Virus record (IMG/VR): IMGVR_UViG_3300024346_003222
Location: 1-21,839 of that record
Reading direction: 5' to 3' (one strand)
Length of the DNA stretch: 21,839 bases
Origin: a virus
Below the pieces are notes generated by a model. The model had not been told where the DNA came from and made no database searches. It was given only the letters and a program-made list of their open reading frames with translations. A program made the position numbers and the translations under genes. Positions 984 through 14,894 of this stretch are shown in pieces (position 1 is the first letter of the stretch; each line of letters begins with the position of its first letter).

Positions 984-1169
984 TTACTTCCTTCTAATCA
1001 TTACAGGAGAACCTTCTTCGTTCTTCTTTTTATATTTTTTCTGCTGATTTTTGGTAATTCCAGGTTCTGCTTGGTTTACCTTTGTTGGATGCGAAATACC
1101 AATTCCAGCAATAGCACCACCAGCGACGCCCATGCCTTCTTCAGTGACGAAATCTTTAAATGAAAGCAT
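984..1169 (-). CDS. Possible in-frame internal translation product (61 aa) with capsid-targeting N terminus
   Basis: Alternative product of the 184-residue gene, beginning at its Met124 codon. Seen: ATG at 1169, GGAGG at 1178-1182, 8 bases between them, which is a better ribosome site than most true starts in this window. The product would begin MLSFKDFVTEE, the same pattern as the starts at 7728 and 14151, and would consist of the Gly/Ala-rich segment and the basic tail. Inference: a small internal head protein could be made separately from the full-length protein. The alternative is that GGAGGAAGG simply encodes Glu-Glu-Gly and has no translational role. Confidence 0.35.
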   Translation of the reverse strand: MLSFKDFVTEEGMGVAGGAIAGIGISHPTKVNQAEPGITKNQQKKYKKKNEEGSPVMIRRK

Positions 1170-2356: not shown

Positions 2357-3901
2357 TTATGCGTCTGGGAATTCAATATCATCAGCAGCATCGCTAGATG
2401 CAATAGCATTCTTAGAGAGTGCTACAAGAACTTCATACTTCACACGACCAGCGTTAGCACCAGTTCCAACTGTGCGCTTCACCCAACCAGAGTGAGCGGC
2501 AGAGGTACCAGTTGCACCAGTACCCTTAGCAGCAGTTGCAGTTGCTTGATCCGCAGTTGCTTGGATTTCAAAGTACTGAGCATTGTTACCTGTAGCACTG
2601 ATATCAATAACTGTTTCAGTTATATAGGTTAGACCAGTTAAAGTACCAGCAGTAGTTACAATTGCGACAGCAGCTTCAGTCGTCAGAGTAAAACCAGTAA
2701 CGTTCGGCGAAGTACCAGTTACAGCAGAAACCTTATATGTTGTTCCTGTTGCATAACCAGTAATAGTACCAGTACCTGCACGTGTGCCAGTAATTGTAAG
2801 ACGATCACCAACTGCAAGTGTTGATGCACCACAAGTAAACTGACCAGCGGTACCAGAAGTAGCAACAGTCGCTACCAGAGTACCAGTACCAGCAGCTGCC
2901 TTGACTTCAAATGCGTTAGCAGTTAGACCAGCAGTAGCAACAAAGTAAGATGTAGTCGAGGTTAACCCAGTAGCAGAAGTACCACCACCATTGTTATACT
3001 TAACTTCTTCATTAGCAACTAAACCATGTGCAGTGTATGCAATAGTATCAGTAGCAGCAGTAATTCCAGAAGTAGGAATAACACGGCGAGGTTTCGCAAT
3101 AGCAACTGTCGGGACAGTTTCATATGACGAACCAGTGTTTGTTACTGCGACTGCCGTTACTAATCCACCCGCGATGGAAGCAGTTGCAGCAGCAGAAGCA
3201 CCACCACCACCAGAGAAGGTAACTGGAGGAACTTCAAGGTAACGTGTGCCACCTTGAATTAGTGCAACCGAGGCAACATTGTCACCACCAGCAGCGATTT
3301 CAGTATTGTCAACACCAAAGACTTGGGTTGATTGGAAATCTGTTGTCGAAACCGAAGCGATTGATGTTGGTTTTTCACTGATTGTATAATTCTCACCAGA
3401 AAATACAGTAAGAACTGATCCTGGATTCGCATTAATTACCGTAGCAACTGTGTCACTGGCAACAGCAATAGCAATCATTTCCTGATCACCAACACGAACA
3501 ACATCACCAACTGCAAGAGCAGGATCGAAGTTTGTGCTTGAACCTGTTAGAGTTCCACGACCTAAACTTAATGAAAGAGTGAAGGTATGTGAAGCGCCTG
3601 AACCGTCGGTCGAAGCGATTACTGTAGGAACATTAAGTCTTGCACCTGCCTCAGTGGCAGCAACCATGAAAGTATTTGTTGTAACTTCGGTTACAAAGTA
3701 AGTGGTGCCAGATGTTAGACCAACAACAGAGGTTCCTCCGCCGTTTGCATATGCAACAGGATCACCAAGTTGGAATGGATGTGCGGCAGAAGTATATACT
3801 CCAGCGGCATGCCCAGTTGCACCATTGAATGTGATAGCAGGGGCAGTAAGAGTTACCGTTCCTGCCTATGTCTTATCGTCTTTATTACCCCATGCGGACA
3901 T
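2357..3901 (-). CDS. Large beta-rich virion structural protein with an in-frame TAG at codon 12
   Basis: Conserved marine-myovirus structural protein. The natural start is the ATG at 3901: it gives MSAWGNKDDKT, the usual start of this family, has AGGGAG 7 bases upstream, and forms a TAATG overlap with the preceding gene. Codon 12 (3866-3868) is TAG; after it the frame stays open for another 501 codons to a TAA. The next in-frame ATG, at 3667, has no ribosome site and would remove the first beta repeat. Full length would be 514 codons. Repeated segments around YANGGGTSVVGLTSGTTYF and YNNGGGTSATGLTSTTSYF flank Gly-rich beta regions. The C terminus (SGWVKRTVGTGANAGRVKYE, then FPDA) matches the family. 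The sequence may be a nonsense mutant, a readthrough gene or a sequence error. Confidence 0.85.
2882..3067 (-). repeat. Internal protein repeat, copy 2 (structural gene)
   Basis: Second copy of the beta repeat in the same gene; shared core is NGGGTS-x-x-GLTS-x-T-x-YFV followed some residues later by F-x-V-x-A-A. Confidence 0.65.
3644..3835 (-). repeat. Internal protein repeat, copy 1 (structural gene)
   Basis: Encodes a segment with YANGGGTSVVGLTSGTTYFV followed by TNTFMVAA. It resembles the segment encoded at 2882-3067 (YNNGGGTSATGLTSTTSYFV, then NAFEVKAA). Copy 1 lies between the TAG codon and the first in-frame ATG after it, so its conservation shows that the region upstream of 3667 is coding. 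Confidence 0.65.
3866..3868 (-). other. In-frame amber codon (TAG)
   Basis: Codon 12 counted from the ATG at 3901, reading ACA TAG GCA GGA. It interrupts an otherwise continuous 514-codon frame. TAG is used as a normal terminator at 11729-11731 and 1531-1533, so wholesale recoding is unlikely. Confidence 0.9.
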
Positions 3902-5301
3902 TAATTGTCTCCCTTTTTAAATTCTAGGTCTACGTAGTTGAAAAATTCTTTTCGTTTCGACTCACCAAGTTCCGAGGGAGACTTGATGTTATATTCAATA
4001 AGAGCAGTATTGAATGCAGCCTTATATGACTCGTTCATTGACTTTACTGCATCAATATCTTCTTTGGTTAGTTTCTTGACTGCCATCGAAATACCCTTAT
4101 GGCGCTTAGTGAGTTTCTTTTCAGCACCCGCTGCAGAACTACCGTGGGCTTCTTTGTGCCCTTGTCTATAAGAAACGATATCAATGGAGTCTTTTGCTTT
4201 GTTGATGTAGCGACCTGCAGTTGCCTTCGAGATCTCATCGACTTGCTCAGCATCTTCTTTGGTCAGTTTATTAACCGCAGTTTTGATTCCTGTCTCACGA
4301 TTCTTACGGAGACGCTCTGCTTTATCATAAGTTGCTTGGTTGAATCTTTTACCGAAGTATCCTGTTTCGCTGTCACCTTGGTAAGCAGCGATTTTTGTCA
4401 GAGGAACATTCTTTGGATCCATTACATTCTTTGGTCTCTCAGCACCTGATGCTTTCTTGACATAAGAACCCATTGTTGCTTTTGAGAGTTCGTCGATCTG
4501 TTCTGAATCTTCAGACATCTTGATTTCGCCAGTACGACGCTTATAAGCCATTGCACGACCAGCTGCCCGCTTTCTAAGAGTCTTAGTAGCGGATCCGTCA
4601 GCAGTCCAATCGCCACCACTCATCTTCATTTTATCAGTAATTTTCTTACCTTGTTCGCCACCTTTGTTAAAGTAGTTACGAACTGTATCTTTCGAAAGCT
4701 CTTCAAGTTCTTCTACTGCTTCAGCAACTTTCTTCTTTCTATTACGAAGAAGGTGGAAGTCATGCGCATCTACCTTACCATTCTTGTTGGCATCGATCTT
4801 ATGCTGAGCACCCTTTAGTTCTTCACTCATCTCGCCTTGCATATAGTTGCTTGCGGTTGAGAGATAATCTTCTGCGAGAGTAATCTTAGACTGAACCCAC
4901 TCAGGAAGATTGGTGTCATCAGAAAGCATGTCATGCATACGCTGCGAGTTGGCAATGATTGACTTCAGTTGCGACATTGCCATGTCACCTTCGTAGTCAT
5001 ACTCTGTTTTTTCTTTTTCTTCACGTGTTTGCTGATAGGTCGCTTTAGCGCCAGCACGTGCCTTGTTGAAAATGGCATCGTCGCCCAGAACAATAAACAA
5101 CATAGAGTTGATTAAATCATTCAGAACAGCAACTTCTCTGCCATGAAGCGTAATACCTGATTGCATTTTCGAAAGAGAAGTTTTAAGTGCTGGAATACTT
5201 TGTGACGGCATAAGACCTGCACGCACCAGCTGATCAAGCCGAGCTGCGAGGTCAGCTGACTCTTGTAGTTTTTGGTTTCTAATTGTTTGCTCTAATGACA
5301 T
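3901..5301 (-). CDS. Modular virion (internal head?) protein with repeats and an EF-hand-like loop
   Basis: A 466-residue, hydrophilic, Lys/Glu-rich, mostly helical protein of a type abundant in marine T4-like phages. Residues 100-158 hold the recurrent segment with NLPEWVQSKITLAEDYL. Residues 170-181 (DANKNGKVDAHD) match a calcium-binding EF-hand loop with acidic or Asn residues at positions 1, 3, 5, 9 and 12. Three repeat units start near residues 200, 270 and 355, each with an acidic lead and an ELS-x-x-T-x-x-x-Y-x-x-K core. Residues 196-273 align without gaps to residues 480-557 of the 1062-residue protein, with 53 of 78 identities by hand count. The C terminus (LIEYNIKSPSELGESKRKEFFNYVD) is also typical of this group. 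A late promoter lies 41 bases upstream of the start. Function is unknown; packaging inside the head is inferred. Confidence 0.8.
   Translation of the reverse strand: MSLEQTIRNQKLQESADLAARLDQLVRAGLMPSQSIPALKTSLSKMQSGITLHGREVAVLNDLINSMLFIVLGDDAIFNKARAGAKATYQQTREEKEKTEYDYEGDMAMSQLKSIIANSQRMHDMLSDDTNLPEWVQSKITLAEDYLSTASNYMQGEMSEELKGAQHKIDANKNGKVDAHDFHLLRNRKKKVAEAVEELEELSKDTVRNYFNKGGEQGKKITDKMKMSGGDWTADGSATKTLRKRAAGRAMAYKRRTGEIKMSEDSEQIDELSKATMGSYVKKASGAERPKNVMDPKNVPLTKIAAYQGDSETGYFGKRFNQATYDKAERLRKNRETGIKTAVNKLTKEDAEQVDEISKATAGRYINKAKDSIDIVSYRQGHKEAHGSSAAGAEKKLTKRHKGISMAVKKLTKEDIDAVKSMNESYKAAFNTALIEYNIKSPSELGESKRKEFFNYVDLEFKKGDN
3909..3914 (-). promoter_or_regulatory. Ribosome binding site for the structural gene start at 3901
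   Basis: AGGGAG on the minus strand, 7 bases before the ATG at 3901. This decides the start and shows that the 5' part containing the TAG codon is meant to be translated. Confidence 0.75.
4483..4716 (-). repeat. 78-residue module shared with the 1062-aa gene (copy A)
   Basis: Encodes residues 196-273 of the 466-residue protein. Aligns without gaps to the product of 9246-9479. Invariant core parts include GGDW, a TKTL..KRAAG segment, KRR-x-GE and KMSED-x-EQIDELS. Confidence 0.85.
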
Positions 5302-7422: not shown

Positions 7423-7728
7423 TCAACAATTCCACTTTCTCAGTGCGAGTGCCTTACGAGTCGGACGACCTTTTTCGTCTTTCATTGGACCTTCTACACC
7501 AGACATTCTAGCACAGAAACTCTTACGACGACCTGCTGCCTTGCTACCTGCCTTCAACTTAGAAGGAGGAGTGGTTACAGGTGCCTGTAGATTACCACCA
7601 GACTGTCTATTATAGTGGTCACGACCCTTTTGAGTTAATCCACCCGTAGAGGACTTGTGTCCCTTACCATCAACTGCAGCCTCGTCCAGTTCAAATTCTT
7701 CAGCAATATATTGTTTAAAAGAAAGCAT
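7423..7728 (-). CDS. Small basic protein with capsid-targeting-like N terminus and conserved Cys/basic domain
   Basis: A 101-residue protein. It begins MLSFKQYIAEE, which resembles the T4 prohead-targeting peptides (MKTYQEFI-type) cut by the gp21 protease after an (I/L)-x-E. From about residue 26 it carries a basic domain with GGLTQKGRDHYNRQSGGNL, PSKLKAGSKAAGRRKSFCAR and GRPTRKALALRKWNC. I recognise this as a conserved domain widespread in phages and metagenomes (DUF6321-like from memory), function unknown. The basic, Cys-containing body and targeting peptide suggest a DNA-associated internal head protein. The start forms a TAATG overlap with the 1062-residue gene, so translation is probably coupled. 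Confidence 0.8.
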   Translation of the reverse strand: MLSFKQYIAEEFELDEAAVDGKGHKSSTGGLTQKGRDHYNRQSGGNLQAPVTTPPSKLKAGSKAAGRRKSFCARMSGVEGPMKDEKGRPTRKALALRKWNC

Positions 7729-10700
7729 TACCTTTTCTTTCCTTTTGTTCGGTTCTTCATTCTAGATTGCTCTAGTTTACGAACTTGACCAACAATACGA
7801 ACAGAAAGACGAGCTACACTTGGAGCTAGACGCTTTACTTGTGCTTCAATTCTTGTTTTCTCAGCTGCTGACATCGAGGATTTATCGCGACCACGAAGGA
7901 AACGCTGATAGACCATACGTCTTGCAGTAGAAATAGAACGTGCCTTAATACGATCTGGAGTCGAGACACGCTTCAGAGCTAGGTTTCTGGCCATGTTACG
8001 ACGAGTCTTGTTGCGCATCGCAGAAAACTTTTTCTTCAGGCGACCCTGTGGGGTGACACCTTCTTCGATTTCTTCTTCGCCATCGACATACTCGAGTTCT
8101 TCATCGTCGTATTCATCAACGATATCTTCCCAAGTCATATTGTCGACTTCTGCTTCCAATTCTTCCATATCTTTTTCGTCGAAATCTGCAAAAATCATCT
8201 CATCGCCATCAAGCTCGAGGGTTTGCATATGTCCACCGTTTCCGCGATGCGTATCATACTGCGGACCACCACCTTGTTGCGTGATGTCAAGAGTTTCTTC
8301 TGCAATAGCTTTAAAGAAGTCGGCATGCGACTTATGTGCGCGATTGATTAGTGATTCTTTTTCAATCGAAGACTTCAGCGAATGATACTTATCGTTGAAT
8401 TTTTCTACATGGTTTGGAGCAACGTGATGTGATTCGCCATTACGGAATTGAACCTTCGAACCGATGCTGGATGCCTTACGAAGCTGCATAACCAAGTGTA
8501 CTGGTTCAGCTGCCTTTTCTGCTGCCTTCTTCTTAGCTAAAGTTTTCTTGGCTTTGGAGATTGCCGCTGGATCAGCAAGAACTTTTTGGATTTTTGCTCG
8601 GAAGTCTGCACGAGCAACAGCACCCTTAGCAGAGATTTCGCTGAGAAGTGCTTCTTTAATACCACCGCAATACTCAGTAGGGACACCATCGTAACGAGGA
8701 TCGAATGTTGGAATCTTTTTCGCAGCAAGACCTTCTTGTCCAGGAGTCATAGCAGCATACTTCTGTCGGAGAGCATCAGTTCCCCATTCGTTGCTCTTGC
8801 CGAGTTCTTCTTTGACCTGACCATCATGTTCCGAATCAAGACTTTTAAATCCAGATTTAACACCATGATGAAATCCAGACGCTTGATACTCTTTCTTAAA
8901 TTTATACGCTGCGCCTTTATCGGAAGCGTAGTGTAATTCACCGCCCCAACCCTTTAGGTGCTTTTTAAACTCTGGCGAGTTGTGATCCTTACTATCGCCC
9001 TTGACGTGAACAGAGTAGACCTTACCCTCAACTTCTTCCTTGATAGCAGCTTCTGTTTTTAGTTTGTTAACTGCTTTATTAATACCGCTGACGCGCTTAA
9101 TAGCAGAGTTAACATTCTTTTCGCCAGCTTTTTCCTCTTCAGAATCGCGGTTCATATCACCACGAACCGTCATTGCCCCGCCAGAGTAACCTTTGCTGAA
9201 CGCTTGGTTGGATGCACCTTTGATATATGATTTTAAAACTTTATTAGATAGTTCATCGATCTGCTCGGCATCTTCAGACATCTTAACTTCGCCACTGCGA
9301 CGCTTCAGTGCCATGGTGACACCAGCAGCACGCTTCTTCAGAGTCTTCGTGTCGGATCCGTCTTTTGACCAGTCACCGCCACCAACCTTCATTCTATCAG
9401 CAATCGGTTTGCCTTGTGCGATAGCCTTGTTGTAATATGTGCGAACAGTTTCTCTTTTAAGTTCGTCGAGACCTTCGACTTCTTCTGGTAAACCCTTTTT
9501 ACGGCGTGCTGCTGCAGTAAAATGATCTGGTGTTCCTGTATCGGGATCCATTTGTAATTTAGCACCAGCTTTCTTTGCTTTATCTGCTCGATAAGCTTGA
9601 ACATGAGCAACTCTTCCTACTCGAATTGCGTCTTCCTTGACTTCAGTTGGTGTAAACTGATTTGGTTGAAGTGTGAAGTTTGAAACATCGCCCTTCTTAG
9701 AAGAATGCTTCAATTGAACATTAACTCGACCATCATCATGCTTGTAGAATACACGAGCCATCTTACCATGATGTTTGTTGCTAGGAGCATGAATTAGAAC
9801 GTTCTCTTCAGATAGTTCCGCTTCTTCCTTAGCAAGTTTCTTATAGATCTTCCTAGAGGCATCAAGATAACCACCTGCTCTTTTATCAGCCATACGGTTG
9901 TCATCATTATCATCAGCGTCAATAATATCTTGGCGAGCTCTTGTTCTGTACTGATCTAACTTTTTTACCGAGAGCTCGTCAATTTGCTCTTCATCAAGCA
10001 TATTTTTGCCTAACTTAGTACGAACTGCCCTCGCTAACTTCGATGCATCGACACCGAAATCGTTAGCTGCCGAGCGAACATGGCTCTTGCGAATGTTATC
10101 ACCATAACGCTTTTGGAGATGTGCAACAATCTTTGCAGTTTCATCGAGATCTTCGACTTCTTCATTGGCTTTCATTGCTTTTTTCGCAAGATACCTAGCA
10201 ACATTTTTTACTGGATTACCATATTTGTCTTTGCGTTCACCAACCTTACGAGTTGGATTCTTTGGATCTTCGTGCCACGGAAATGTATCTGAGGATTGTT
10301 CATCAAGACCCTTCTTGCGTCTCTGAGCTGCAGTGAAGTGATCAGGTGTTCCAGTATCTGGATCCATCTTCAGTTTCGCACCTGCTTTTTTTGCTACTGC
10401 TGCCTTCGCCTTTGCAATAATATCGGTTGCTTCAGGTACACAGTTAGGAACCATTCTGTCACCCTTCTTCTTCATGCCGACACGTTTATATCCCTTCCAG
10501 CATGCTTCGTCAACAGTTTCTTCGCTAACAGACCTCCATCCGCCGCCTTTCGACTTGTAATACTTTGCTGCCCAACCATTTGCATATGCTGATGGATAAA
10601 CGTCAAACTTTTGTTTTGCCAAAGACTTTGCCTTTGACCATAAAGATGGATTAGTAGGTTCATTACCCTCCACCATAAATTCTTCAGTGTTTACCATTAT

Positions 10701-10916
10701 TGGTTTTCCTTTACGATCAGCATTTGGGTCTTCTCTTCTTTTTCTACGAGTCGCAGTTGCTCTATCTTTTTTTGTCATCGATCTTGCTTTGGAACCAGAA
10801 AGGCATTTAGGTTTACCTTCACTATCATCTTTTCCGCCACATGGTCCTATGATTTCGCCTTTGGTGTTCATTCGCACCCATTTTTGACGAAACCATTTTC
10901 TAAGATCTTCGTTCAT
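7728..10916 (-). CDS. Giant modular virion protein (1062 aa) with repeats and basic C terminus
   Basis: A very hydrophilic multi-module protein, probably internal to the head. Seen in order: residues 1-62, a KWVRMNTKGEIIGPCGGKDD module with Lys/Arg-rich tail; 90-128, a NPSLWSKAKSLAKQKFDVYP segment leading to GWAAKYYKSKGGGW; 138-162, a CWKGYKRVG...NCV motif; 178-206 and 449-477, two near-identical copies of AGAKL-x-MDPDTGTPDHFTAA; ELS/LDEL-type repeat units near 310, 480 and 552; 480-557, a module 68 percent identical (hand count) to one in the 466-residue protein; about 905-950, a very acidic stretch; 951-1062, a strongly basic helical domain with GRDKSSMSAAEKTRIE. Each module type is familiar from marine T4-like phage proteins. 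Its start overlaps the spanin stop (ATGA). No catalytic motif is visible. Confidence 0.8.
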   Translation of the reverse strand: MNEDLRKWFRQKWVRMNTKGEIIGPCGGKDDSEGKPKCLSGSKARSMTKKDRATATRRKRREDPNADRKGKPIMVNTEEFMVEGNEPTNPSLWSKAKSLAKQKFDVYPSAYANGWAAKYYKSKGGGWRSVSEETVDEACWKGYKRVGMKKKGDRMVPNCVPEATDIIAKAKAAVAKKAGAKLKMDPDTGTPDHFTAAQRRKKGLDEQSSDTFPWHEDPKNPTRKVGERKDKYGNPVKNVARYLAKKAMKANEEVEDLDETAKIVAHLQKRYGDNIRKSHVRSAANDFGVDASKLARAVRTKLGKNMLDEEQIDELSVKKLDQYRTRARQDIIDADDNDDNRMADKRAGGYLDASRKIYKKLAKEEAELSEENVLIHAPSNKHHGKMARVFYKHDDGRVNVQLKHSSKKGDVSNFTLQPNQFTPTEVKEDAIRVGRVAHVQAYRADKAKKAGAKLQMDPDTGTPDHFTAAARRKKGLPEEVEGLDELKRETVRTYYNKAIAQGKPIADRMKVGGGDWSKDGSDTKTLKKRAAGVTMALKRRSGEVKMSEDAEQIDELSNKVLKSYIKGASNQAFSKGYSGGAMTVRGDMNRDSEEEKAGEKNVNSAIKRVSGINKAVNKLKTEAAIKEEVEGKVYSVHVKGDSKDHNSPEFKKHLKGWGGELHYASDKGAAYKFKKEYQASGFHHGVKSGFKSLDSEHDGQVKEELGKSNEWGTDALRQKYAAMTPGQEGLAAKKIPTFDPRYDGVPTEYCGGIKEALLSEISAKGAVARADFRAKIQKVLADPAAISKAKKTLAKKKAAEKAAEPVHLVMQLRKASSIGSKVQFRNGESHHVAPNHVEKFNDKYHSLKSSIEKESLINRAHKSHADFFKAIAEETLDITQQGGGPQYDTHRGNGGHMQTLELDGDEMIFADFDEKDMEELEAEVDNMTWEDIVDEYDDEELEYVDGEEEIEEGVTPQGRLKKKFSAMRNKTRRNMARNLALKRVSTPDRIKARSISTARRMVYQRFLRGRDKSSMSAAEKTRIEAQVKRLAPSVARLSVRIVGQVRKLEQSRMKNRTKGKKR
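9246..9479 (-). repeat. 78-residue module shared with the 466-aa gene (copy B)
   Basis: Encodes residues 480-557 of the 1062-residue protein, aligned without gaps to the product of 4483-4716, with 53 of 78 identical residues by hand count. Confidence 0.85.
9486..9572 (-). repeat. 29-residue internal repeat, copy 2
   Basis: Encodes AGAKLQMDPDTGTPDHFTAA followed by ARRKKGLPE (residues 449-477). It differs from copy 1 at only three positions. Confidence 0.85.
10299..10385 (-). repeat. 29-residue internal repeat, copy 1
   Basis: Encodes AGAKLKMDPDTGTPDHFTAA followed by QRRKKGLDE (residues 178-206). In both copies it is preceded by an Ala/Lys-rich stretch and followed by an acidic linker. Confidence 0.85.
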
Positions 10917-11728: not shown

Positions 11729-13189
11729 CTACCGTTTTAATTTTATTTTACCAGCGAGTATTCCCACCCTTGCTCGATTCATAATACTTTTCGATTCTGC
11801 ATCGGAGAAATTAGGTCCGAGATGATTTTTGTATGTCTTTTCATCACCCGATGCCGCTGCGTTACGCATCTTTGTTCCTGACATACCATGCGAGCGATTT
11901 TCGTCTTTCGGATAATGGATTTCTACTCTGTGAGGTTTCTCACCATTCAATTCAGGAATCTTACCCGTTTCAATCGACTTCTTTAGACCTTCTGCCATTT
12001 CCTTGCGATCGTGTCCGAAGTGCAGATGTAATACTTTCTTTGGACCCGTCAAAGAATGAAATGCGCGACCTACTGTCTGCCCAGCAGTCTTTTCTATTTT
12101 GAATTCAGCAGCACCGTTAGACTGTTTGTTGGCGATATGTTCTCTTTCTTTATCAGAAAACACATCTGACTTACCAGACAAACCAACATGCTTCTTACCA
12201 GCACCCATTCCGCCAACAACATCAATATGATGACCCATATGAGTGTGAGGGGATGCACCCATAAATGCTACGTGCGCATGCTGTTCTGCTTCTTCCTCAA
12301 GATATGATTCGTTAGCAGTATCTTTGGCGCCAAGATTCTTACGTAAATGCTCTGTCGCAGGACCGTGCAACATACCTTTCATTTTAGCAAGTCCTGTTTT
12401 AAACTTGTCGTATATTTCTTGGTGTTGTGCCTTGGGAATATGCTTCTTGATTAAGTCTGCTACACCCTTGAATGATTTAATCTTCTCGTGGTCTGCAGAA
12501 TTACCGAACAGATGCTTTGATATTTCATGAGGATGCTGCACACCAAGATCGTTGTCGTCCGTTCTAGAACGCAGACCGTGCGAGATAGAAAATTTATGAG
12601 TCGATCCAGACGCTGCATTGATCAGCATCTTATGATGAACACCCTTGATACCTGACTTGGTATCTTCCCAGCTAGAAGAATGCAGGAATCTATCAGTTTC
12701 TGATCCAGGATTATGGACACCCTCAAAGTCAAATTGATGATGCTCGCCATTCTTGTGGCGCATTACTGCAGAGATTTCGTTACCGTGCTTTTTAGTTCCT
12801 GCGACGGTATAGTTACCAAATTTCTTACCTGTTGCCAGAGTTGATGCTAGTTTTTCTTTATGATCGTGACTGACCTGAACGTCGACATCGCCGACATGCG
12901 GTTTATGTTTAGCAAACTCTTCATCATCAACATGACTGCCCATAAAATCATGCGAAGAACCTGAATAAACGTGCCCTGTTTTCAGGTGAGTTTTATTTGC
13001 ACCAAACAGATGTTCGCCATGCTCTTTGTGAAACGCATCGTGTACTTTACTCAGTGCTGTATGAACATCAGTCCTGCGTGCAGATCTAGTATCCGATCTG
13101 ACTGGAAAGGGAGCAGCAGAAGTTTCTTGCCCCTTTGGTCCAACCTTGATGTTTCCACCTTCGTTCAGAAACGACTTAAAACTTTTCAT
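11729..13189 (-). CDS. Double nucleotidyltransferase with capsid-targeting-like N terminus
   Basis: A 486-residue protein. Residues 1-11 (MKSFKSFLNEG) look like a prohead-targeting peptide with a cut after LNE. Residues 76-160 fit a pol-beta-type nucleotidyltransferase: a GS pair at 77-78, then GDVDVQV with D101 and D103, and a third carboxylate D154 in QFDFEGV. The C-terminal part (about 305-460) fits the cytidylyl/adenylyltransferase superfamily: GASPHTHMGHH with H317-x-G-H320 as the HxGH motif, and MSGTKMRNAAASGD at 436-449 as the S-x-T-x-x-R motif. The protein is unusually His-rich. Substrates are not predictable; NMN, nucleotides, sugars or RNA ends are all possible. It ends in TAG and its start forms a TAATG overlap with the ligase-like gene, so both are translated together. 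Confidence 0.75.
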   Translation of the reverse strand: MKSFKSFLNEGGNIKVGPKGQETSAAPFPVRSDTRSARRTDVHTALSKVHDAFHKEHGEHLFGANKTHLKTGHVYSGSSHDFMGSHVDDEEFAKHKPHVGDVDVQVSHDHKEKLASTLATGKKFGNYTVAGTKKHGNEISAVMRHKNGEHHQFDFEGVHNPGSETDRFLHSSSWEDTKSGIKGVHHKMLINAASGSTHKFSISHGLRSRTDDNDLGVQHPHEISKHLFGNSADHEKIKSFKGVADLIKKHIPKAQHQEIYDKFKTGLAKMKGMLHGPATEHLRKNLGAKDTANESYLEEEAEQHAHVAFMGASPHTHMGHHIDVVGGMGAGKKHVGLSGKSDVFSDKEREHIANKQSNGAAEFKIEKTAGQTVGRAFHSLTGPKKVLHLHFGHDRKEMAEGLKKSIETGKIPELNGEKPHRVEIHYPKDENRSHGMSGTKMRNAAASGDEKTYKNHLGPNFSDAESKSIMNRARVGILAGKIKLKR

Positions 13190-14151
13190 TATCTTTTTCC
13201 AAACTTTTGAGTAGAAGAAGACTTAGCTTCTTTGAATTTTGGATTGATTGCCTTGAAGCGAGCCGCTTCTGGATTAGATGGTGAAGGGTGAATTACCAAT
13301 CCTTCAGTACCAGATCCAAATTTATTTTTGATTTTCTTTTCGCCAAGATGCGCAGTAACCTTAGCACTAACACGCTTTTTTATCTCATTAAACTTTTCAG
13401 TCTCTGCGAGTTTTGCTTCTTTGTTCTTAGGAACTGTTCTGGAATTGATCAACTCATGATTCAATTTATGGAAATCTGCTACTTCATGCTTGACATCTAC
13501 GTGCGATGGAGTATGGTGAATGGTATCATCGTCGAATTTAATATTATCATCCGACAATTTTTTCTTGAAGTGTTCAGTGTCGTGTTGCTGATTGGTTGGT
13601 AATTTAGAGTGAATGATAAATGAACCTTGCTTACCCATTCCCTTCGTGGAATAGGAAGTATGAACAAATTTCACTTCACCTTTTTTATCTCCAGGACGAG
13701 CAAGCGAGCGATTAAACGCTTCGCCGCTGACAGCAACTTCGCCGTGCTTCTCATAATGTTTTTTCAAATGATCCTGTAGAGCTTTGTTTTTGTGCAGCGC
13801 ATCATGGAACTTAGACATTGCTGTTGGACCAGTAGGATCATATTCCTTACCAGTCTCAGATGCTCTGCGTTTTGCTCTTTCAATATGTCCATCACCAGTT
13901 CGAATTCGTTCACTACCAGAACCCGAATGCTGAGTATAGAATCCATTTTCATCATGACCAAACTTAAATGTTTGACCGTCGGTCTTTTCAGTTACATGAT
14001 GAATGTGGAGTTTACCACCACGAGTAGTTTTCTCGAATTGATCTGTAGAAAGCGAGGGAGTTTGTGCACCTGCTGGTGTCGGTGTTGAATATAGGTGTGG
14101 GAGACCCTGTCGTATAGATGCTTCACTGATATATTGGCGAAAAGATAGCAT
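13189..14151 (-). CDS. Nucleotidyltransferase/ligase-fold protein with capsid-targeting-like N terminus
   Basis: A 320-residue protein. It begins MLSFRQYISEA, matching T4-type prohead-targeting peptides (cut expected after ISE). Motifs consistent with the ATP-dependent RNA/DNA ligase fold appear in the right order: EKTDGQTFKFG with K56-x-D-G as motif I, VSGEAF with G143-E144, HTSYSTKGMGKQGSFIIHSK, EGLVI at 283-287 as motif IV, and ARFKAINPKF at 297-306 as motif V. If active, K56 would take AMP from ATP. The family is known from marine T4-like phages as an uncharacterised virion-gene neighbour. It is first in a late unit: a perfect TATAAATA lies 33 bases upstream. Alternative: an inactive ligase-fold protein with a structural role. 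Confidence 0.7.
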   Translation of the reverse strand: MLSFRQYISEASIRQGLPHLYSTPTPAGAQTPSLSTDQFEKTTRGGKLHIHHVTEKTDGQTFKFGHDENGFYTQHSGSGSERIRTGDGHIERAKRRASETGKEYDPTGPTAMSKFHDALHKNKALQDHLKKHYEKHGEVAVSGEAFNRSLARPGDKKGEVKFVHTSYSTKGMGKQGSFIIHSKLPTNQQHDTEHFKKKLSDDNIKFDDDTIHHTPSHVDVKHEVADFHKLNHELINSRTVPKNKEAKLAETEKFNEIKKRVSAKVTAHLGEKKIKNKFGSGTEGLVIHPSPSNPEAARFKAINPKFKEAKSSSTQKFGKR

Positions 14152-14183: not shown

Positions 14184-14191
14184 TATTTATA
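14184..14191 (-). promoter_or_regulatory. T4-type late promoter
   Basis: A perfect TATAAATA on the minus strand, 33 bases upstream of the ligase-like gene start. It contains the TAA stop of the glycosyltransferase gene. It marks the change from the replication block to the virion block. Confidence 0.75.
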
Positions 14192-14894
14192 ATAATTGCT
14201 CCCAGTCAAAATTGATTTTAGTGGTAATTTGCGTAATGTCTTCTTTTCGATGTTTTGGATGGTGCATTATACCATTCTCATTGTCGTAAATGATTCTATC
14301 TCCGTCGTGGTATTGTATTTTTCTAGCACCGCGATGATCATGTAGAGTCATATTTAATGCATGGTCTGTCACAAATTGTCTCATTTTATTGATAAACTCT
14401 CTGTCACCAACATGGATTGTTGTCCACGATTCATTATATCCACCAGCTTTCCAGAAAACATCTTTGTGAACAATGTATTGATTAACAGACTCACATTCCT
14501 CGACAGGATAGTTACGCAAAACTCTCCACTTAAAATAATAAAGTTTTTCTTTATCAAGAGTCATGTTCTCAACAATATGAGTTAGAGCAGTAATTCCAAC
14601 AAAGTGATCAATATCGGTAAAGAACAACCATTCAGTTTCTGCAACCTTTGCTGCTAAGTTTCTAGCACCATGGCTATTGAATCCGATGTCTTCCTTTACT
14701 CGATACAATGAAAGACGTACCCCTTCGTTGAGAGATACGTCTTTCAGAATATCATATGCTGGATACTTTTGTGATGCATCGTCGACGATAAGCACATCAA
14801 TAGGAGTCGGGAATAAATTCCATCGCGCAATTTGTTTTTTTAGTAACTCAGGTTCATCATAATATGTGTGGATGAGAGTTAATTTATTCGACAT
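14187..14894 (-). CDS. Family 2-like glycosyltransferase
   Basis: A 235-residue GT-A fold protein. Near the N terminus LTLIHTYYDEP begins the nucleotide-binding fold, IVDDAS at 36-41 supplies the DD of the nucleotide site, GARNLAAKVAETEWLFFTDID gives the usual GxRN helix and D94-x-D96 metal-binding motif, and FWKAGGYNESWTTIHVGDREF matches the acceptor-side segment of GT2 enzymes. It should transfer a sugar from a nucleotide sugar in the cytoplasm. In phages such enzymes modify DNA bases, virion proteins or host surface glycans; which applies is not visible. Its start overlaps the preceding gene by 11 bases, and its stop is part of a late promoter. Confidence 0.85.
   Translation of the reverse strand: MSNKLTLIHTYYDEPELLKKQIARWNLFPTPIDVLIVDDASQKYPAYDILKDVSLNEGVRLSLYRVKEDIGFNSHGARNLAAKVAETEWLFFTDIDHFVGITALTHIVENMTLDKEKLYYFKWRVLRNYPVEECESVNQYIVHKDVFWKAGGYNESWTTIHVGDREFINKMRQFVTDHALNMTLHDHRGARKIQYHDGDRIIYDNENGIMHHPKHRKEDITQITTKINFDWEQLL

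Follow-up and report, generated by a model that had tools for sequence, protein, structure and literature searches.

The window, a 21,839-nucleotide stretch of viral DNA (IMG/VR record IMGVR_UViG_3300024346_003222), carries on its minus strand two adjacent genes encoding predicted nucleotidyltransferases, LIG and NT-CyT (Table 1), the second comprising two domains. Both open reading frames lie where the initial annotation had placed them, and the stop/start overlap that it had read between them is present on the minus strand within GGAAAAAGATAATGAAAAGTT, which is the minus-strand sequence over positions 13200–13180, across the junction. The dN/dS values of the two genes, calculated against two close relatives, are 0.09–0.17, and LIG and NT-CyT are therefore maintained genes. 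The neighbouring genes in the window encode a glycosyltransferase, a spanin-like protein and a small protein that matches no family; no phosphatase, kinase or nuclease-like gene adjoins the pair there. The glycosyltransferase gene (family 2, 14187–14894, minus strand) lies directly upstream of LIG, and a glycosyltransferase-like gene occupies the equivalent place in 16 related contigs.

Table 1 Features of the locus, in window positions (a slash marks the predicted prohead-protease cut)
Feature	Position	Strand	Description
LIG	13189–14151	minus	320 aa; ligase-fold nucleotidyltransferase with N-terminal capsid-targeting leader
LIG leader	14122–14151	minus	MLSFRQYISE/A, predicted cut after E10
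NT-CyT	11729–13189	minus	486 aa; pol-beta-type nucleotidyltransferase (NT) fused to HIGH-superfamily nucleotidyltransferase (CyT)
NT leader	13160–13189	minus	MKSFKSFLNE/GGN, predicted cut between E10 and G11
NT domain	12317–13159	minus	Residues 11–291; GS...D-x-D...D active site
Candidate internal prohead-protease site	12293–12301	minus	Interdomain linker [LI]xE, L297-E-E299/E300
CyT domain	11732–12283	minus	Residues 303–486; H317-M-G-H320 and S437-G-T-K-M-R442
LIG/NT-CyT overlap	13187–13191	minus	TAATG stop/start, read from sequence
T4-type late promoter motif	14184–14191	minus	TATAAATA; first base 40 nt upstream of the LIG start
Leader-bearing small protein	7423–7728	minus	MLSFKQYIAE/E; Pfam DUF6321, E 2.6e-26

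Predicted folds and active sites

The AF2 model of LIG (pLDDT 88.3, with a low-confidence leader) shows the adenylyltransferase fold of ligases and is nearest to RNA ligases. All of its leading structural matches are ligases or capping enzymes, RNA ligases first, with VIA Z scores of 9.4 for Naegleria Rnl (over 185 residues), 7.9 for T4 Rnl1, 7.7 for TbREL1 and 7.6 for T4 Rnl2, compared with about 5–6 for DNA ligases. The likeness, of moderate strength (Foldseek E 5e-3, TM about 0.3, Z 9.4), does not tell RNA ligases from DNA ligases. The motif set of the Rnl superfamily was found in LIG, comprising KxDG, the motif III glutamate (E144), the motif IV EG (E283/G284) and the motif V lysine, and residues K56, D58, G59, G143, E144, E283 and G284 are invariant in 36 homologues. 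The K-x-D-G, GE and EG elements named in the initial annotation hold throughout this set, whereas its K-x-x-x-P-K-F motif is not conserved and was rejected; R298-F299-K300 is conserved instead, and its invariant K300 is assigned here as the motif V lysine.

Against the Pfam RNA_ligase profile (PF09414) LIG scores 13.2 bits, below the curated cut-off of 27, and it is therefore labelled RNA-ligase-like and not a member of that family; sub-threshold matches occur in 10 of the 36 LIG members, with a best E value of 0.001. No LIG relative was found in cultured phages by tblastn, and none was confirmed in bacterial genomes. Comparison by hhalign with KxDG proteins of Vibrio phage SRILMA (p 0.26) and Xanthomonas phage X1 (p 0.037) did not establish homology, although the motif order fits in the latter. 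Profile searches of PDB sequences with the LIG and NT-CyT alignments, and with those of two neighbour families described below (HAD and nuclease-like), gave nothing useful, and an NCBIfam search gave nothing usable. The LIG gene of one related contig (L013, 3734–4711) is split into two reading frames by an apparent frameshift or stop, for which sequencing error or decay is possible; the same applies to an NT gene in L079 (5105–6582).

In NT-CyT, modelled at pLDDT 86.1 and again with a low-confidence leader, the two active sites read in the initial annotation are strongly conserved. NT residues G77, D101, D103 and D154 are invariant in 29 homologues and S78 is present in at least 90%; in CyT, H317, G319, H320, S437, G438, T439 and R442 are invariant in the same number. 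The NT fold assignment is tentative and comes from Foldseek matches, the VIA rows not covering NT. These matches, to DNA polymerase lambda (probability 0.98, but E 0.017), DNA polymerase beta (0.87) and terminal nucleotidyltransferases (TENT5/TUTase), are weaker than those of CyT, whose VIA-align Z scores for NadM (10.5), NadR (10.3), NMNAT (10.2) and PPAT (10.1) are not separable. CyT matches the PHROG 3041 cytidyltransferase family (E 2.7e-4) and has the HxGH and (S/T)xTxxR motifs and the Rossmann-like fold of HIGH nucleotidyltransferases; it is predicted to be an AMP- or CMP-transferring member of that superfamily. The models are consistent with a ligase fold for LIG and a nucleotidyltransferase fold for CyT and, more tentatively, for NT, as the initial annotation had proposed, and all three domains are likely to be active nucleotidyltransferases.

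Leaders, predicted cleavage sites and a late-promoter motif

The capsid-targeting sequence of T4 IPIII, mapped by mutation, consists of ten residues, of which positions 4 and 7 serve targeting and 8 and 10 processing (PMC9026906). The leaders of LIG and NT-CyT, described at the outset as T4-type prohead-targeting peptides, match these determinants with F4, Y/F7, I/L8 and E10. Across the window and related contigs, a simple form of the leader pattern occurs in 72 of 513 sense-strand reading frames of at least 120 aa, whereas 1 of 125 antisense frames and 0.1% of internal positions match; a looser layout fits 34 of 37 unique LIG N termini. Leaders recur on LIG, NT and stand-alone CyT, the last carrying its own leader when encoded by a separate gene. 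LIG and NT-CyT are very probably targeted to the head, and sequence evidence supports their packaging well. The leader-bearing DUF6321 protein (Table 1) is probably a further head cargo. A leader-like segment, MLSFKDFVTE, also lies mid-protein in the window (1140–1169, minus strand), at residues 124–133 of a conserved phage protein encoded at 984–1538, and can be likened to the embedded leader of a LIG-CyT fusion in contig L102, in which an entire leader-like sequence (MPFGAFLAE) is retained internally.

The predicted cleavage sites are retained in most fused forms. The motif [LI]xE/GGN stands ahead of NT in every homologue that was inspected, three in-frame fusions among them, and in LIG-NT fusions [LI]xE still stands before GGN (as LLRE, IIME and LLNE). 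Linkers preceding CyT contain [LI]xE in 20 of 29 non-redundant cases, against 8.9 ± 2.3 in shuffled sequences, with none of 2,000 shuffles reaching 20, although common descent leaves the counts less independent than such shuffling presumes; the other nine mostly have V or M in place of L/I. Homologues of NT in cultured phages, which are securely homologous (local hmmsearch E 5e-20 or better; hhalign 98.8%), illustrate the boundary: NT of Campylobacter phage CP220 begins MKLSELMFILE/GGN, whereas those of the Vibrio phages Va1 and SRILMA and of Xanthomonas phage X1 have no leader and start with MGGN, exactly at the predicted cut. The leader therefore behaves like a removable module that ends at this position.

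The window is a fragment without the prohead-protease region, and the protease is known from related records, 7 of 11 of which, including four of the five largest, encode a Peptidase_S77 (gp21-type) enzyme. At five of six capsid-protein loci examined, [LI]xE occurs at residues 52–61, near the end of the T4 propeptide; at the sixth, the script chose a different reading frame. Two large proteins of the window (7728–10916 and 3901–5301, both minus strand) have repeated [VI]DE[LI]S motifs that could represent many prohead-protease sites, and the N-terminal domain of the former recurs in a 2,202-residue fusion protein of contig L071.

The claim that the pair leads a late unit agrees with the TATAAATA motif ahead of LIG. 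The window contains two exact matches, with 1.24 expected, which is not above chance. In 796 kb of related contigs, some of them near-identical, the motif is found 109 times in the sense and 9 times in the antisense orientation, and 71 of 103 occurrences lie within 80 nt upstream of a reading frame. This strand bias and proximity to genes in relatives support late transcription of LIG and NT-CyT.

The triad in related and cultured phages

In an HMM survey, LIG, NT and CyT are adjacent, whether encoded by a single gene, by two or by three, in all 59 viral contigs that could be judged, that is, with enough sequence downstream of LIG. The co-occurrence analysis suggested in the initial annotation thus shows linkage among relatives and not independent origins, because the contigs, many of them near-identical, came from two profile scans in which LIG or NT-CyT served as the query. 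In addition to the arrangement of the window, with LIG followed by NT-CyT, three separate genes are present in L069, L073, L077, L093, L099 and L101, a LIG-CyT fusion beside NT in L102, and a single LIG-NT-CyT protein of 906 (L094), 981 (L097) or 2,202 (L071) residues. The last of these includes further Zeta_toxin/AAA_33 domains and is closed by DUF6321. Multi-domain polypeptides are found in L071, L087, L094 and L097, compared with one two-domain protein in the window.

Several enzyme families adjoin the triad in relatives. One is a phosphatase of the HAD type, which matches PHROG 415 ‘polynucleotide kinase’ (E 1.1e-5), and another a P-loop kinase; a phosphatase-like gene is present in 15 contigs and the kinase in 11, just after CyT, and neither these two nor the nuclease-like genes are universal. 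Among PDB sequences the kinase profile matches adenylate-kinase P-loops only, and weakly. Seventeen nuclease-like proteins from 17 contigs, usually encoded just upstream, have the E-x-K signature typical of PD-(D/E)xK nucleases, an assignment made at the motif level with no Pfam match. A zincin is also among these families. The leader pattern is present in 12 of 16 HAD or zincin proteins and in 9 of 17 nuclease-like proteins. Among the five large related records, two have a separate ATP-type DNA ligase and two a NadV-type NAPRTase; NadV was not found in the other three, which are possibly incomplete, and KptA was found in none of the five.

Proteins related to CyT have been reported in virions of cultured cyanophages. 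S-SZBM1_140, a CyT of PHROG 3041 with the leader MRFRQFIIE, was detected by two peptides in CsCl-purified virions; its KxDG neighbour S-SZBM1_141 has no leader and goes unnamed in the main text of the virion paper. NMNAT- or cytidylyltransferase-like proteins were likewise reported in virion preparations of S-CREM2 (three peptides), S-SCSM1 and S-CBWM1. The authors of these reports allow for carry-over, and the detections lend slight support to packaging for relatives of CyT but do not extend to LIG or NT. These cyanophage proteins resemble the window system in having a CyT of PHROG 3041, leader-bearing in S-SZBM1, and a DUF6267 neighbour with KxDG and EGxV; they differ from it in that no NT was seen beside CyT and no homology of DUF6267 to LIG could be detected.

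In T4-like cyanophages, in Methylophilales phage Melnitz and in Stenotrophomonas phage DLP6, the DUF6267 proteins (L161:1215–2408, L162:1330–2250, L163:2326–3582, L164:1351–2277 and L149:1825–3060) share invariant K-x-D-G, EG-x-V and K-x-V-x-R motifs and lie beside or near CyT, those of Melnitz and DLP6 bearing leaders. From these motifs DUF6267 is likely to be an unrecognised ligase-like family; merging it with LIG was rejected, as no significant alignment was obtained (hhalign p 0.21). Xanthomonas phage X1 (L148:6022–9371) encodes consecutively an NT, an uncharacterised protein, a KLDG/EGVVI protein and a cytidylyltransferase, the NT and cytidylyltransferase being leader-less.

Proposed function and alternatives

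In the mechanism that we propose, LIG, NT and CyT would be made late and packed into a T4-type prohead through leaders of approximately ten residues, and a gp21-type protease would trim them after [LI]xE, also between fused domains, to leave mature enzymes beside the DNA. Delivered into the cell together with the genome, the enzymes would be at work before any phage gene is transcribed, mending cleaved nucleic acid and probably RNA, for example tRNA that host defence nucleases have cut. NT would add lost nucleotides and LIG would seal, the ends being conditioned in many relatives by the Pnkp-like phosphatase, P-loop kinase and nuclease-like protein; CyT might have a role involving a cofactor such as NAD or in end activation. 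The case for nucleic-acid repair as the task of these enzymes is evenly poised, as is that for the reading as a whole, in which a virion-packaged kit delivered on infection would repair nucleic acid, probably RNA; CyT, which resembles cofactor enzymes rather than repair enzymes, counts against it, as does the lack of a phosphatase, kinase or nuclease-like gene next to the pair in the window. If repair is the task, RNA is the more probable substrate, because the structural neighbours of LIG are RNA ligases and relatives have a Pnkp-like phosphatase. The most specific form of the proposal, a virion-borne RNA heal-and-seal kit of leader-tagged enzymes or protease-cleaved polyproteins that would undo tRNA-cutting defences from the first moment of infection, is put forward tentatively, as a possibility. 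Of the packaged nucleotide-transfer system envisaged in the initial annotation, sequence and comparative evidence upholds the head targeting and the nucleotide-transfer chemistry, whereas its range of action, to repair or modify RNA, DNA or protein, was too broad.

The same enzymes could instead repair DNA ends of the incoming phage genome, as a packaged miniature non-homologous end-joining set. The best-scored nucleic-acid-polymerase matches of NT, DNA polymerases lambda and beta, would suit such a role, as would the several PD-(D/E)xK-like neighbours in relatives and the fact that the enzymes would travel with DNA. LIG, however, is nearer to RNA ligases than to DNA ligases, two of the five large records have their own ATP-type DNA ligase, and recombination and terminal redundancy are usual in T4-like genomes, all of which makes this reading unlikely. 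A defence of cofactors, in which an NMN-adenylyltransferase-like CyT would restore NAD early while LIG and NT modified other targets, is quite doubtful: it draws on the closeness of the CyT model to NadM, NadR and NMNAT, on NadV in two large records and on the NAD role that cyanophage authors proposed for virion NMNAT-like proteins, but PPAT and NadD tie in score for CyT, the three records in which NadV was not found (perhaps through incompleteness) speak against it, and the constant linkage of CyT to LIG and NT is left unexplained.

An Alt-like modification of the host early in infection, with nucleotides transferred onto host proteins or intact RNA, has precedents in T4 Alt itself, a packaged and injected nucleotide-using enzyme, and in pol-beta nucleotidyltransferases of polyvalent injected proteins. 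We consider it improbable, and favour end repair over Alt-like modification because LIG shares its fold and motifs with polynucleotide ligases or capping enzymes and because the phosphatase, kinase and PD-(D/E)xK-like proteins encoded nearby in relatives are of types that work on nucleic-acid ends. Equally improbable is that LIG and NT-CyT are ordinary late cytoplasmic enzymes whose leader is an unrelated N-terminal helix, with nothing packaged. The leader-less homologues in Vibrio and Xanthomonas phages would fit this view; the position-specific match to the mapped T4 signal, the recurrence of the leader on unrelated folds, its loss at the exact boundary and the retention of linker sites argue against it.

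Enzymes that are packaged and injected have been described before, as have leaders and CyT-like virion proteins, and the earlier statement that the system has no described equivalent was too strong in view of CyT-like virion proteins, T4 internal enzymes and polyvalent proteins. The complete kit nevertheless appears to be undescribed, a linked set of ligase, NT and CyT with leaders not having been found in a limited open-access literature search. T4 IPI–III and Alt share with the predicted cargo a leader of approximately ten residues (positions 4, 7, 8 and 10), an [LI]xE-type cut, late expression and, in relatives, a gp21-type protease. Here, by contrast, the cargo would be linked nucleotidyltransferases, their packaging being predicted, whereas Alt acts as an ADP-ribosyltransferase and IPI inhibits restriction. 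The RNA repair system of T4 (Pnkp and Rnl1) has an Rnl-superfamily ligase fold in common with LIG, and in relatives of the window a HAD phosphatase and a P-loop kinase are present as well; the present system differs in its packaging leaders and additional NT and CyT, and LIG has no detectable sequence homology to Rnl1. The T4 enzymes are made after infection starts and may be late relative to fast tRNA-cutting defences, so that a pre-made, head-carried kit would, if real, constitute a new counter-defence strategy. Through these assignments, late genes of T4-like freshwater phages that had lacked annotation gain a likely chemistry, and cultured Campylobacter, Vibrio, Xanthomonas and Synechococcus phages offer relatives suited to testing it.

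Polyvalent proteins, which are multidomain, predicted to be packaged and injected, and include pol-beta nucleotidyltransferases and metallopeptidases among their domains, are similar in joining several domains, including a pol-beta nucleotidyltransferase, in one polypeptide, the 2,202-residue L071 protein being an example. In the present system the enzymes are usually small and leader-bearing, and domain boundaries retain prohead-protease sites, which suggests that fused head cargo may be separated into individual enzymes by the prohead protease.
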